From the IMG/VR virus record IMGVR_UViG_3300010430_000458, positions 1 to 23,644 of that record: a stretch of DNA of 23,644 nt; one strand, 5' to 3'. A program made the position numbers and the translations under genes. Within the stretch, counting starts at the first letter, position 1. The number at the start of each line of letters is the position of its first letter. Below, one piece after another: positions 3,509 to 15,376 of the stretch. The notes beneath the pieces are model-generated. The model worked only from the letters and a program-made list of their open reading frames with translations, ran no database searches and was not told where the DNA came from. This DNA is from a virus.

Positions 3509-3956
3509 ACAACAACTAGAGCGTATCGCAGTCGCAACGGAAGCAACGCTTGACGTGCTGCAAGGTTTGGCGGCAAAAGTGGAGCACATTGGGTGTGCAG
3601 TGGAGACTGTGCAGGCCGCAGAACCCACCGTCGCCCCAAAGCCACAGGCGCCTGCCCCTGTTGCGGCACCCCAACCGGCTGCGCCAGCGACTCAGATGGC
3701 TGCCCCTCCTGTTGAGGCACCCCCAGCAGCACCCGCAGCACCCGCAGCACCCGCAGCACCCGCAGCGCAGGTCGCGCTGACTCTTGAGCAGATGAACGAG
3801 CGCCTGATCGCAGAAGTGAAGCGGCTCACGGATGCAGGCGTCGAGGGCTACCCGAAGATCGTTGAGATTATGAAACAGTCTTTCGGTGTAGACGGCTTAC
3901 AGCAGCTCCCTGCGGAGAAGTACCAAGAGCTGCTTGACCAGGTAGCGCAGCTATGA
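3498..3956 (+). CDS. Ala/Pro-rich protein of unknown function in the replication operon
   Basis: I start this 152-residue protein at 3498, where GGAG lies 8 nt upstream. The same frame is open further upstream (from 3357), but that stretch overlaps the preceding gene heavily. The N-terminus is a helix (SIEQQLERIAVATEATLDVLQ, about residues 2-22) suited to oligomerisation. Residues about 40-92 are a disordered Ala/Pro linker that includes four perfect 9-nt repeats. The C-terminal 60 residues look like a small folded helical domain (LTLEQMNERLIAEVKRL onward). Similar helix-linker-domain proteins occur beside phage recombination genes, as I recall, without a known role. Its stop overlaps the start of the nuclease gene as ATGA, indicating translational coupling. 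Confidence 0.75.
   Translation: MSIEQQLERIAVATEATLDVLQGLAAKVEHIGCAVETVQAAEPTVAPKPQAPAPVAAPQPAAPATQMAAPPVEAPPAAPAAPAAPAAPAAQVALTLEQMNERLIAEVKRLTDAGVEGYPKIVEIMKQSFGVDGLQQLPAEKYQELLDQVAQL
3726..3761 (+). repeat. Four perfect 9-bp tandem repeats encoding Ala-Ala-Pro
   Basis: The unit GCAGCACCC is repeated four times in frame, with degenerate Pro/Ala codons on both sides. It encodes part of the disordered linker of the 152-residue protein. The unit differs from the tract in the ssDNA-binding protein gene (CCC rather than CCA for Pro), which suggests separate expansions. Confidence 0.85.
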
Positions 3957-5267: not shown

Positions 5268-6080
5268 ATGCAACTCAAAATACATGGCATTTTATCTTTC
5301 CCGCACATTTTCCAGGCACGCGCAGTGCAGCAGGGAGATGATCCGAAGTTCAGTTGTGCGGTGTTGGTCGCCAAGAACGATCCGCAACTGGCACAGATTC
5401 AGCAGGCTATCGACACTGAGAAGGCGAACAAGTGGCCGACGGGATTCCCGGCTAAGGGCAAAGTCTGCTTGAAAGACTGCGCAGTTGAGAACCCGGACAA
5501 TCCGGAACTGCACAATTACATGGTGATCAGCGCGACATCGAAGGCGGATCAAAAGCCTATCGTCGTCGATGCGAACATGCAGCCCGTGCTTGATCCGTCA
5601 CTTGCCTACCCTGGCGCGATGGCGTGGGTGCAGATCAACACGTTCACGTACGACCTGCCCACCAGTAAGGGCGTTGGCGCAGGTCTGAACGGGGTCATGC
5701 TGACGGGGCAAGAAGGGCCACTTGGTCGTCTCGACAATCGACCTACGGCAGAGCAGATGTTCGGCGATGTCGGCGGCACCGCACCGCAAGCACCAGCAGC
5801 AGCACCAGCAGCACCAGCAGCACCAGCAGCACCAGCAGCACCAGCAGCACCAGCAGCACCAGCAGCACCAGCAGCAGCACCAGCAGCAGCACCAGCAGCA
5901 CCAGCAGCACCAGCAGCACCAGCAGCACCAGCAGCACCAGCAGCACCAGCAGCACCAGCTCCGGGATTGGTGATGACGGCAGCGGCGAACGGGGCGACAT
6001 ACGAGCAGTACACTGCGGCAGGCTGGACTGACGAGCAGATGATCGCGCAGGGCGTAGCAATCCGCCCGAGCTTCGCGTAG
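5268..6080 (+). CDS. ssDNA-binding protein, DUF2815/Enc34 type, with expanded Ala-Ala-Pro linker
   Basis: This 270-residue protein resembles the phage Enc34-type ssDNA-binding family (DUF2815). The N-terminal 150 residues fit the OB-fold region (GILSFPHIFQ near the start; AMAWVQINTFTYD at about 117-129; GVGAGLNGVML at about 135-145). Residues about 175-230 are an almost pure Ala-Ala-Pro tract, far longer than a normal linker. It ends in a distinct tail (YEQYTAAGWTDEQMIAQG and on, about 246-263). The layout of fold, disordered linker and C-terminal tail recalls bacterial SSB and T7 gp2.5, where the tail contacts partner proteins. AAGGA lies 8 nt before the ATG. It follows the nuclease by 10 nt, a common phage pairing of nuclease and ssDNA-binding partner. 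Without the tract the length is normal for the family. Confidence 0.85.
   Translation: MQLKIHGILSFPHIFQARAVQQGDDPKFSCAVLVAKNDPQLAQIQQAIDTEKANKWPTGFPAKGKVCLKDCAVENPDNPELHNYMVISATSKADQKPIVVDANMQPVLDPSLAYPGAMAWVQINTFTYDLPTSKGVGAGLNGVMLTGQEGPLGRLDNRPTAEQMFGDVGGTAPQAPAAAPAAPAAPAAPAAPAAPAAPAAPAAAPAAAPAAPAAPAAPAAPAAPAAPAAPAPGLVMTAAANGATYEQYTAAGWTDEQMIAQGVAIRPSFA
5790..5957 (+). repeat. 168-bp GCA/CCA tandem tract (9-bp unit) encoding Ala-Ala-Pro repeats
   Basis: The tract is made only of GCA (Ala) and CCA (Pro) codons, mainly in the 9-bp unit GCAGCACCA, with two or three places where an extra GCA makes AAAP. Near-perfect nucleotide identity, not just peptide identity, points to recent replication slippage. 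All unit changes are multiples of 3, so length can vary without breaking the frame. Other frames read as Gln/His-rich (+) and Gly/Ala-rich or Leu/Val-rich (-) and are shadows. Confidence 0.95.
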
Positions 6081-12088: not shown

Positions 12089-12262
12089 TCAAGAGTGGTC
12101 GCGGTCACGCAATTCAAGCAACTTGTCCGTGTTGGCGTTGATATGCTCTGCCAGTTCTTCGTCTGACATGTCGGGATTGTTCACTGCGGCACGATACTGC
12201 TCGACGGAGATCCCGAGCTGCACCAGCACCCGCATTAACTGTACGATTGCTTGAGCGTTCAC
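12089..12262 (-). CDS. 57-residue protein with GTG start, coupled to the lipoprotein gene
   Basis: The minus frame starts at GTG 12262, behind a strong GGAGGGGG sequence, and ends at TGA 12091-12089. The start overlaps the lipoprotein stop as GTGA, and the stop lies 10 nt before the fibre-gene ATG, so the gap is filled by a coupled gene. The product is helical and acidic: a hydrophobic helix (AIVQLMRVLVQLGI, about residues 5-18), then DMSDEELAEHI and a C-terminal charged helix. No family is recognised. The tight fit to its neighbours and the ribosome site support it despite its size. An internal ATG at codon 10 is a weaker alternative start. Confidence 0.75.
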   Translation of the reverse strand: MNAQAIVQLMRVLVQLGISVEQYRAAVNNPDMSDEELAEHINANTDKLLELRDRDHS

Positions 12263-12567
12263 AATGCCCCCTCCACTTCTTGTAAAATCAAATCAATACA
12301 CTGGTACTTGTTTTCGGCACCCTCGCACTCCACCAGATCGGTGAACAGCGCGCTGGTGTCTCCGAGCAATCCATTCGCAAAGATTAGTTTATCGATAAAC
12401 TCGTCGCCGTCGGCCTCAGACAGTACGCCCGCAGCTTGCGCCCGCACCACCTGCTCCGCCAGCATTACGATCTGGTCAGACGTGAACGCAGTCGCGTTAT
12501 TCGGCTTGTCTTCAAACAGACTGCACCCGCTAAAAAGTAGTAGCAGCACAAGGACGCAGTGCTTCAT
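12259..12567 (-). CDS. Small lipoprotein, candidate outer-membrane spanin subunit
   Basis: I start this 102-residue protein at ATG 12567, 8 nt after AAGGAGGCG; the frame is open upstream but would cover the holin gene. The N-terminus is a short lipoprotein signal (Lys-His, then about 8 hydrophobic residues) with lipobox LFSGC (C15), so it is probably cleaved and lipidated. The rest is acidic and helical and contains two further cysteines (in VECEGAENKYQC). Its position in the lysis cassette, two genes after an inner-membrane coiled-coil protein, suggests the outer-membrane spanin of a two-component pair. It lacks the Pro-rich layout of many such proteins, so the spanin call is moderate. It shares ATGA with the holin candidate. 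Confidence 0.7.
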   Translation of the reverse strand: MKHCVLVLLLLFSGCSLFEDKPNNATAFTSDQIVMLAEQVVRAQAAGVLSEADGDEFIDKLIFANGLLGDTSALFTDLVECEGAENKYQCIDLILQEVEGAL

Positions 12568-12743
12568 GACTTCGCCTCCTTGATGTATGAGAACAGCCCT
12601 GTGAAGATCAGCGCGATGGCCGCCTCGCCGCCCGTTGGAAGTTGAGCAGTGAACTCCGGCTGAAAGTAGCCCAGAACCCACAGCAGAAGGCACGCAAGCG
12701 CACCGCCAAGACTTAGATCAGTTACAGTGGTTTTGTTGTTCAT
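12564..12743 (-). CDS. Candidate holin, 59 residues, two membrane segments
   Basis: The frame from ATG 12743 to TGA 12566-12564 encodes 59 residues. Hydrophobic spans lie at about residues 12-28 (GGALACLLLWVLGYF) and 41-55 (AAIALIFTGLFSYI), separated by a short loop with QLPTGGE, and it ends in a charged KEAKS tail. Size and topology fit small phage holins that release the endolysin through the inner membrane. GGAG lies 7 nt before the ATG. It overlaps by 4 bp with both neighbours (coiled-coil membrane protein upstream, lipoprotein downstream), showing tight coupling in the lysis cassette. The call rests on topology and location. Confidence 0.78.
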   Translation of the reverse strand: MNNKTTVTDLSLGGALACLLLWVLGYFQPEFTAQLPTGGEAAIALIFTGLFSYIKEAKS

Positions 12744-13048
12744 TCTTGCTTCTCCAGTAGCTTACGGATTTCCGCGAGGGCTTTGCCTTGCTGCTTAATT
12801 TCCTGCAAATCCCTCGCGGTGTACTTCTGTTCAAGCTTTATCACCTCCAATGACGTCTTGATGACCTGAAGCTCTCGCTTCATTTCAACCATATCACGGG
12901 AGATAGCAGCGGTTTCTTCTTGCGACGCGTTCACCTTCTCATTGAGTGAGGCCCACGCCATGCCCCCCACAAATATGAGCGAGATTGCCATCCCGAGCAC
13001 TTCAATGCTCAGGAATTTCCCCAGCTTCCCGTTAGTCATGTCCGCCAT
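12740..13048 (-). CDS. Inner-membrane coiled-coil protein, candidate inner-membrane spanin
   Basis: This 102-residue protein has a short cytoplasmic N-terminus, one membrane span (about residues 14-33, VLGMAISLIFVGGMAWA) and a long periplasmic-type coiled coil (about 35-100, rich in Glu, Lys and Leu with heptad spacing). That is the layout of an Rz-type inner-membrane spanin, which joins a lipoprotein partner to fuse the membranes at lysis. A holin-accessory membrane protein of the XhlA kind is the alternative, although that family has the coil before the span. AAGGAG lies 8 nt before the ATG; it overlaps the amidase by 17 nt and the holin by 4 nt. Confidence 0.68.
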   Translation of the reverse strand: MADMTNGKLGKFLSIEVLGMAISLIFVGGMAWASLNEKVNASQEETAAISRDMVEMKRELQVIKTSLEVIKLEQKYTARDLQEIKQQGKALAEIRKLLEKQE

Positions 13049-13478
13049 TGAGTAGACTCCTTACGTCAAAGTTGGGGCACGTCTTTGTCACCCCTGGAAT
13101 GTCCCGATGCCCTCGGGCCTGAATGCCATTGTAGCGTGCGCGGTAGTAATCCCACAAACTCTTGAGGCTCTGCACCTGTTCCAGCGTGAAGTCAAAGTCG
13201 CCATGCCACCCGCCAACAAGACAGATCCCGACCGAGTCGGCATTGTGTCCGAACGCATGTGCCCCCGCGTCATCGTCCACTTCGCCATCGCCGTCTAAGT
13301 CGCGGCCTTTCTCGATGACGCCATCGCGCCGGATCACCCAGTGGTAGCCAATATCTGACCAACCGTTGTCGTTAACATGCCAATCGCGGATCTCGTCCGC
13401 ACCGATGTCCATGTTCGGCGGTGTGGCAGAGCAGTGTACATAGAAGAAGTTAACAGGCCTCACGTTTGACGTCCTCAT
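13032..13478 (-). CDS. Endolysin: T7 lysozyme-type N-acetylmuramoyl-L-alanine amidase
   Basis: This 148-residue protein cleaves the peptidoglycan amide bond at lysis. It aligns with T7 lysozyme: HCSA with zinc ligand H15, GYHWVI with Y45, GHRD with H124, and TKTCPNF with K132 and C134, matching T7 H17, Y46, H122, K128 and C130. Between GRD and GAHAFGHN there is an acidic insertion D60-D70 (DLDGDGEVDDD) absent from T7 lysozyme that looks like a calcium loop. The ATG at 13478 has no clear ribosome site; an in-frame GTG at 13463 has GAGG 9 nt upstream and may be the true start, leaving the catalytic part unchanged. In T7 this protein also inhibits the phage RNA polymerase; none is seen here. Confidence 0.92.
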   Translation of the reverse strand: MRTSNVRPVNFFYVHCSATPPNMDIGADEIRDWHVNDNGWSDIGYHWVIRRDGVIEKGRDLDGDGEVDDDAGAHAFGHNADSVGICLVGGWHGDFDFTLEQVQSLKSLWDYYRARYNGIQARGHRDIPGVTKTCPNFDVRSLLNGGHD

Positions 13479-13495
13479 TTATTTTATTTTCATGC

Positions 13496-15376
13496 CTAGG
13501 AGGATATCACGCCGTTGCTGGTTAAGGTGTTGACAACTTCGGAGGTGCCGCCAGTGCCGCCGTCAAAGTTAATCCACGAGCCCGTCAGCGCCCTTACGTC
13601 TGAGGGGTCTGGGGCCCCTCCTTTCTGGGCATTTACATTCCTGGCGTTACACCAAGATCCGTGCTCTATGCTGATACCAAAACTAGCACAACCACTGGCG
13701 TCTGCGTTGCTCGCGTCGATTCTCCCGCCCTGAAAAGCCCGAATTCCTACGCCGTTCCCCCCCGTGGCGCCGGATGCCGTGACCCCCTCCGCGCAAATCT
13801 CACCGCCATTGCCGGCATAAACACCTTCTTGGCATCCGGTGGCGGTAGCATTTTTACAATTTATCCTGCCTCCATTATTGGTGGAGAATCCGACCAAAGA
13901 GTTTGAACCATCTGCTTGTTCTGCATTAATTTGACTACCGTCTGAGGAATGGTAAGCAGTGGACAGACAACCCGTTGCTGTAGACTCCCTTGCAGAGATC
14001 AAGGAACCCTCATTTGCGAAAAACCCTCTCCCATACGTTGTATTAAAATTACTCTCATAGGCTAAAACCCTCGCCCCTAAATTCGCAAGAACTCCGTACC
14101 AGCCACATCTACGAATGCCCGATAATCTACCCACTTCTATACTTGACCCGGGACCATAGCAGAGGACCCCTACATTTCTAAAAGTAGGGTCTTGCGCAGT
14201 GAACCCCATATCAAACATCTGATCAATCTTAGGCCCGGACCCTCCGGCATATACCCCAAACGCGGGGTAATATGTTGAACTGTAATTGTCAACCCCCGTT
14301 GACGGAGATTCAGTTAAGTAGGAGCTGTCGATAGTTGTCTCTGCATCATCCCCTGTGATACGAATCCAAGATAGGTCTATGCCCCATGCAAAAACTTGCT
14401 CCTCCATTACGAAGCCTGTCCGCAAGTTTATGACAGCTTTCGGTTGTGGTGTGGCTGTAGGAAATCTACCGATTAAGTGCGCTATGGCTTCGTTTATGGT
14501 GGTGAAATCCCCTCCAGAGCCTACCGACACTGTGACTTCGTTAGCGTTGGAGCCTAGTCTTGTCACATTCACGGTAGCGTTGTCTGAGTAAAAGTCTCCG
14601 AAACAGACAAAAGAGTACTGAGAGAAGTCTCCCGAGCTAACGACGGCGGTCCCTTCAGGAAGCAGAATAGTTTTAGTGAGCCCTGCGGCTGTTGCTGCAT
14701 TTGAGAAAGCAGACGAGTCCTCGGTCACTCCGTCCACTGCGGCCCCGAAATCTTTAACGTTGACCACATGCCGATTTTGTAAGTAACGGGCCAAGGTGTA
14801 TGTGTCGCTATCTTCCGCGTGGAAGATAAATTCAGTGTCATTAGTGCCAGCATTCGACGCGACGTTAATCGCAGCCTGCACCTGTGCGCTGGTGTACGCA
14901 GTAGCTTCGGGGTCTCCTGTGGTCCCGAACGTAAGCAGCTTGCCGACTCGCGCAGCAGCCGCAGGCATGTCCCCGATGGCAGAGTCCTGCTTCGGCGCTT
15001 TAAGTGCTCGATCCGTGATCTCAATCAGCTCTTGGGCCTCCATGACTCGCTCGTCGATGCCCCGCTCGTGAGTCTCTGCGGGAAACGGGTCTCCTGACAC
15101 GTAGTCAATGTCTTGGGTGAACGGCATCTTTCGTCTAAGCACCAGCGCCTCTCCTGAAGCTGGGGCAGTCGCCATAGTGACGTCTCCGCCTCCCGCGTCA
15201 CCCGCACCTGCTACGGTGTAGTGCGTTGTCAGAGTCTGGACTGTTTCAACGCCGCTGCTGCTCACCAAGATGACTTCTAGATGCGTCTCGTCCAGAATTC
15301 TGAAGTTGTAGGCAAAGACCGTCGTAGAGCCGCTGCCGCTGTACTCGATTCGCTTGTTACTGGTGTTAACTGTCAT
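13496..15376 (-). CDS. Tailspike with T7 gp17-like N-terminus and beta-helix (pectate-lyase-like) body
   Basis: This 626-residue protein has an N-terminal domain of about 150 residues resembling the T7 gp17 attachment region (RIEYSGSGSTTVFAYNFRIL near the start; THERGIDERVMEAQELIE at about 104-121). A pectate-lyase-type beta-helix entry follows (VVNVKDFGAAVDGVTEDSSAF, about 206-226), then a second entry-like segment (VGSGGDFTTINEAI, about 279-292). A long ladder of Gly-Gly-x-Ile and Asn-Ala/Cys rungs runs to near the C-terminus (for example GGRINCKNATATGC, GGEICAEGVTASG, GGRIDASNADASG). Such spikes usually bind and often cleave a host capsule or LPS; no catalytic residues can be named. Its start overlaps the end of the large ejection gene as ATGA. 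Confidence 0.85.
   Translation of the reverse strand: MTVNTSNKRIEYSGSGSTTVFAYNFRILDETHLEVILVSSSGVETVQTLTTHYTVAGAGDAGGGDVTMATAPASGEALVLRRKMPFTQDIDYVSGDPFPAETHERGIDERVMEAQELIEITDRALKAPKQDSAIGDMPAAAARVGKLLTFGTTGDPEATAYTSAQVQAAINVASNAGTNDTEFIFHAEDSDTYTLARYLQNRHVVNVKDFGAAVDGVTEDSSAFSNAATAAGLTKTILLPEGTAVVSSGDFSQYSFVCFGDFYSDNATVNVTRLGSNANEVTVSVGSGGDFTTINEAIAHLIGRFPTATPQPKAVINLRTGFVMEEQVFAWGIDLSWIRITGDDAETTIDSSYLTESPSTGVDNYSSTYYPAFGVYAGGSGPKIDQMFDMGFTAQDPTFRNVGVLCYGPGSSIEVGRLSGIRRCGWYGVLANLGARVLAYESNFNTTYGRGFFANEGSLISARESTATGCLSTAYHSSDGSQINAEQADGSNSLVGFSTNNGGRINCKNATATGCQEGVYAGNGGEICAEGVTASGATGGNGVGIRAFQGGRIDASNADASGCASFGISIEHGSWCNARNVNAQKGGAPDPSDVRALTGSWINFDGGTGGTSEVVNTLTSNGVISS

Follow-up and report, generated by a model that had tools for sequence, protein, structure and literature searches.

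Phage endolysins of the T7-lysozyme type are zinc enzymes, and an acidic, calcium-loop-like stretch inside one of them raises the question of whether such an enzyme may carry a second metal, of what kind the site would be, and what it would do for lysis. The virus record analysed here (23,644 bases, taken as a whole and called the window) carries an ORF of this type on its minus strand (13032-13478, 148 aa, ATG start). From the letters of the DNA, the original prediction had described an acidic insertion in a T7-type amidase, resembling a dockerin or EF-hand loop, that might make activity or stability depend on calcium, a dependence thought fitting for marine or saline surroundings. Here we ask what the enzyme is, how its loop is conserved and distributed among relatives, and which reading of the loop these data favour.

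Identity of the amidase and position of the loop

The 148-aa protein matches the Pfam family Amidase_2 (PF01510; E 2.1e-16; 60.9 bits, well above the cut-off of 26) and the phrog_822 family 'amidase' (E 5.1e-49), and its best match is T7 lysozyme 1LBA (phmmer E 1.5e-31). The zinc ligands and catalytic residues of T7 lysozyme are named in PMC4573324, and the zinc His/His/Cys and catalytic Tyr/Lys are all present in the window enzyme (H15, H124 and C134; Y45 and K132; Table 1). As these residues are kept, the loop represents an addition to the enzyme and not a replacement of part of it. An Amidase_2 match was also obtained for 40/40 rows of the alignment of loop-bearing amidases (E <= 0.1).

The likeness to T7 lysozyme (PDB 1LBA, 1ARO) and to the phrog_822 amidases covers the predicted fold, the Amidase_2 domain, the zinc ligands and the catalytic lysine. 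The difference lies after GR, where these proteins have a turn of five residues and the window enzyme has a 12-residue Dx[DN]xDG loop, inserted between GR and GAH. The alignment with T7 lysozyme has a seven-residue gap directly after GRD, which, together with the family matches, bears out the predicted insertion in a T7-type amidase. The residues given for it, D60-D70 (DLDGDGEVDDD), are also correct and correspond to codons running from 13301 down to 13269, while the end originally given, 13302, is one base too many.

Table 1. Coordinates of the amidase, its loop and the adjoining genes in the window
Feature	Positions	Strand	Basis
T7-lysozyme-type N-acetylmuramoyl-L-alanine amidase (endolysin), 148 aa	13032..13478	-	Pfam Amidase_2, phrog_822, 1LBA by sequence and predicted fold
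H15, zinc ligand by homology (T7 lysozyme His17)	13434..13436	-	H in 40/40 rows
Y45, equivalent of T7 lysozyme Tyr46	13344..13346	-	Y in 40/40 rows
12-residue loop D60-A71, where most T7-type amidases have a 5-residue turn	13266..13301	-	spacing 12 also in 60 scanned loci; spacing 5 in 117/120 amidases among the matches listed
Dx[DN]xDG motif, D60-L-D62-G-D64-G65, putative side-chain ligands 1, 3, 5	13284..13301	-	position frequencies in 60 loop-bearing amidases; motif definition PMC3123361
D69-D70 (loop positions 10, 11), candidate later acidic calcium ligand	13269..13274	-	D/E at both in 60/60 loops vs 10/117 short turns
H124, zinc ligand by homology (His122)	13107..13109	-	H in 40/40 rows
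K132, catalytic lysine by homology (Lys128)	13083..13085	-	K in 39/40 rows, R in 1
C134, zinc ligand by homology (Cys130)	13077..13079	-	C in 39/40 rows, gap in 1
102-aa protein, one hydrophobic stretch near the N-terminus, charged tail; probable lysis-cassette partner (holin or spanin type)	12740..13048	-	sequence, overlap with amidase 3' end; PHROG matches weak, their function unknown
Small lipoprotein-like ORF (MKHCVLVLLLLFSGC... from internal ATG), possible outer-membrane lysis partner	12259..12567	-	sequence; no PHROG match

Conservation of the loop

A first scan of viral contigs, based on letters (D-x-[DN]-G-[DN]-G-x6-GAH), returned 36 stretches, from which 20 T7-type amidases were picked by reading; their consensus is GRDLDGDGDvxDEvGAH. 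Since a scan of this kind selects for the motif itself, two further scans were made blind to the letters of the loop. One of them, complete for the viral contigs, fixed the spacing only (GY-x12-GR-x12-G[AS]H-xx-G-x-N, with the 12 loop letters free) and gave 60 stretches, all of them T7-type amidases by reading.

The six letters that open the loop in the window are DLDGDG, and the loops of the spacing-only set follow the same scheme: position 1 is D in 60/60, position 3 is D (50) or N (10), position 5 is D (57) or N (3), and position 6 is G in 58/60, with one A and one D. Further along, position 7 is D in 50/60, position 8 is mostly V, I or T, position 10 is E (37) or D (23), and position 11 is E (52) or D (8), so that both of these last positions are acidic in every loop, versus 10/117 short-turn amidases with acids at both equivalents. 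Position 12 is I, V, T, M, F or Q and is an acid in 0/60. A hydrophobic residue at position 8 is also suited to EF-hand loops. The window differs from the set in its A71 at position 12, a residue absent from that position in the other 60 loops, and has D at position 11, where E is commoner elsewhere.

Variation is free at positions 4 and 9 (2.6 and 3.1 bits) as opposed to 0 to 0.6 bits at positions 1, 3, 5, 6 and 11. As far as the letters go, this alternating conservation at 1, 3, 5, 6 and 10/11 is the pattern of a chelating loop. The original prediction had proposed an alignment of amidase homologues around the loop, and both the calcium-type motif Dx[DN]xDG and the acids at 10 and 11 come out of it conserved. 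A chance acidic stretch is ruled out by the conserved letters found with a scan that fixed only spacing.

When the 60 loops were grouped by an ungapped 80% identity rule, 41 clusters were obtained, and 38 of them have the strict Dx[DN]xDG motif. The other three (L310, DTNNNADYFDDI; L388, DLNGNDDPFDDI; L381, DLNKNGEVTDEI) have Asn for Asp, and Gly at position 6 is lost in two; they may represent decaying or altered metal sites.

Distribution among relatives

The second scan blind to the loop used a viral-contig pattern for the GAH..G.N....G.C.VGG segment alone and sampled at least 120 amidases. Among the matches listed, the turn has five residues in 117/120 and 12 residues in 3/120, and no other length occurs. 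The loop is, on these counts, a minority trait among T7-type amidases, and, since 117 of the 120 among the matches listed lack it, it is not needed for catalysis in general. A whole-protein search led in the same direction, with 30/33 relative loci lacking all seven residues, and the remaining three (L029, L030 and L032) having other letters at the insertion site. Two of these, L029 and L030, carry a different insertion there (SFDDNGIVEWNEIANG), which is acid-rich and lacks the Dx[DN]xDG pattern. In sequenced phages, the best 60 of 819 records were all without the loop (102 bases for 41 query residues).

The nearest relative that we met is L364, which has 59% identity and a loop of its own (DLDRDGNVDEEV). 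Named phages that align with the loop ungapped are marine Vibrio phages (58/60 and 30/30 rows among the matches listed), and nearly all of the Vibrio phage loop matches listed are near-copies of one 47-kb type; two further sets of 30 matches listed have a gap at the loop site in all rows. A representative is the 47-kb Vibrio phage 19E33.1, whose lysin (MW824414, annotated 'lysozyme') is of the same enzyme type, carries the loop, which reads DLDGDGDVEDEI, and is 48% identical to the window amidase. In a separate group of loci (L222-L225 and L227-L229) the loop is followed by GAGA or AGA, with Gly replacing the otherwise invariant His of GAHA.

The alignment of loop-bearers comprises 39/60, since near-copies were dropped, as was any row in which less than 40 residues followed the pattern; for the tree the loop columns were removed and 77/117 short-turn rows remained after thinning at 75%. 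The loop is scattered on this tree, with 13 changes, at least three of which are forced by well-supported branches. A single clade of loop-bearers is not rejected (p-AU 0.234), and gain, loss and exchange are thus indistinguishable.

Outside viruses, a profile of the loop-bearing amidases had matches in 44/369 bacterial genomes of one class. At 30 loci of that class the turn was readable in seven, where it was the short turn of five residues (7/7) and no loop was seen, and these readable turns led us to reject an origin of the loop from bacterial chromosomes for that class. The letter-based pattern D-x-[DN]-G-[DN]-G-x6-GAH gave at least 129 matches in genome contigs. Those listed resembled frame noise and the calcium repeats of beta-propellers, and none of the seven that passed a crude filter was amidase-like. 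Solved structures (27 by phmmer, 31 by profile) have a gap at the loop site in all eight alignments inspected (five and three). No description of this loop in a T7-type amidase was found in the main texts of the open-licence papers searched.

Predicted structure

AlphaFold2 models were built from 17 and from 40 loop-bearing sequences, with mean pLDDT values of 85.2 and 91.9, and means of 65 and 90 for residues 61-70, respectively; the loop pLDDT follows the alignment supplied and says nothing about metal. The first model matches 1LBA with a Foldseek E of 1.4e-11, and the second with Z 21.0 and rmsd 2.1 over 134 aligned residues. The loop is placed between strand 55-57 and strand 82-87, and the model is free of helices from residue 39 to residue 81.

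Lacking flanking helices in the model, the loop is not an EF-hand, and this type is further ruled out by the 0/60 acids at position 12 and by the lack of any EF-hand family match in Pfam. A dockerin is likewise ruled out by the single loop, by the lack of a helix after it in the model, and by the lack of a dockerin match in Pfam. The resemblance to these two families noted at the outset holds for the loop sequence itself and does not extend to its flanks or to family membership.

Because the loop runs into the conserved GAH..G.N segment, it would lie beside the substrate groove. In the amidase-2 domain of LysGH15 a conserved Asn is reported to bind peptidoglycan (PMC4022735); N79, present in 40/40 alignment rows, may be its counterpart.

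A probable structural calcium site and its alternatives

In the Dx[DN]xDG motif, as described by Rigden and co-workers 2011 (PMC3123361), calcium is held by three side chains (positions 1, 3 and 5), by the backbone carbonyl that follows them, and by an acid further on, at a widely varied spacing, in many unrelated folds and mostly at extracytoplasmic sites. The T7-type loops share with this motif positions 1, 3, 5 and 6, a later acid, and an extracytoplasmic place of action. The same source describes a subtilisin in which a calcium insertion is found in a fold mostly without one, as is the case for T7-type amidases; the words amidase, lysozyme, phage, endolysin and peptidoglycan are all absent from its main text. 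It also bears on the alanine at loop position 12, which the original prediction had correctly noted but counted as a weakness: position 12 is not an acid in any of the 60 loops, and in known sites the spacing of the later ligand differs. The acids at loop positions 10 and 11 correspond to spacings of 3 and 4, respectively, between motif and later ligand; for a spacing of 4 Thermococcus subtilisin provides a precedent (PMC3123361), and Ala at 12 is therefore no objection.

Taken as a calcium-type loop, the insertion is well supported by its conservation; calcium as the ion, the choice of the last acid ligand, the groove-side position and the effect on stability are what we infer beyond it. The reading that we favour, with a probability of about two in three, is that the loop is a single structural calcium site of the Dx[DN]xDG kind in a PGRP/T7-lysozyme fold, which would order the loop and stabilise the enzyme. 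D60, D62 and D64 would hold calcium with their side chains and E66 with its backbone carbonyl, the last protein ligand would be an acidic side chain at position 10 or 11 (D69 or D70), and water would complete the shell. Binding of the ion would order the charge-rich 12-residue loop that leads into GAH..G.N beside the substrate groove, and the enzyme would be stabilised once it has reached the periplasm, which is rich in calcium, or has left the cell. The zinc site would remain in charge of catalysis, with calcium acting on stability instead.

A bolder alternative is that calcium works as a switch, the enzyme staying inactive or loose in the bacterial cytosol, where calcium is nanomolar (PMC5615198), and becoming active once the holin admits it to the periplasm. 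The loop does abut the conserved GAH..G.N segment, and a calcium site near the groove switches the CHAP domain of LysGH15 on and off (PMC4022735). LysGH15, like the window enzyme, is a phage lysin with a 12-residue calcium-type loop, located near the active-site groove in the former and presumably so in the latter. However, the CHAP domain is another fold, and its calcium ligands are at positions 1, 3, 5, 7 and 12, whereas the T7-type loops never have an acid at position 12 and have one at both 10 and 11 in every case. Moreover, T7 lysozyme and 117/120 relatives (among the matches listed) do without the loop, and PepX, which has a comparable loop, shows activity little changed by EDTA or excess calcium; a double Asp mutant of PepX is inactive (PMC10536834). 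A switch would be more exciting than a structural site, but nothing here favours it, and we regard it as unlikely. Its most far-reaching version, that of a scattered subfamily of T7-type endolysins with a removable calcium module gating lysis, near-inert in the cytosol and locked on in the periplasm or in seawater, i.e. a second-metal safety catch on a zinc enzyme, is a speculation to which we give slightly less weight.

A loop that is kept acidic for the geometry of its turn, for the charge of the surface, or because it touches the substrate or the host wall would need no metal at all, and metal binding is indeed deduced from sequence, with a few members having N at 3, N at 5, or A or D at 6. 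Nevertheless, alternating conservation at 1, 3, 5, 6 and 10/11 with free positions 4 and 9 goes beyond what charge or a turn would need, which makes this explanation improbable. The loop could also hold another divalent ion (Mg, Mn) or aid zinc loading: one crystal structure has manganese bound at a Dx[DN]xDG site (PMC3123361), and the T7-type amidase Ts2631, which may or may not carry such a loop, loses all activity in EDTA and is restored by Zn, Mn or Ca (PMC4573324). Yet all proteins tabled in PMC3123361 are stated to be calcium binders, and the zinc ligands of the window enzyme are complete without the loop, so that we consider this very unlikely. As Ts2631 can be restored by Zn or by Ca, tests with chelators must separate zinc from calcium. 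Removal or addition of the loop in purified enzymes makes an effect of calcium on an endolysin directly testable.

Genomic neighbourhood

A structural calcium site would be carried here by one member of what is probably a lysis cassette (12259-13478), made up, to judge from the ORFs, of the amidase, the overlapping 102-aa protein and the lipoprotein-like ORF. On the other side of the amidase gene, positions 13496-15376 code for a tail protein, probably a depolymerase spike, whose N-terminus is of the T7-fibre type and which also has a pectate-lyase-like (epimerase) region. Elsewhere in the window, a 9-base tandem repeat of about 19 copies (5789-5959) codes for an Ala-Pro linker in a Gp2.5-like single-strand binding protein (5268-6080), and a nearly identical unit, repeated about 4.6 times (3726-3766), codes for such a linker in another ORF upstream.
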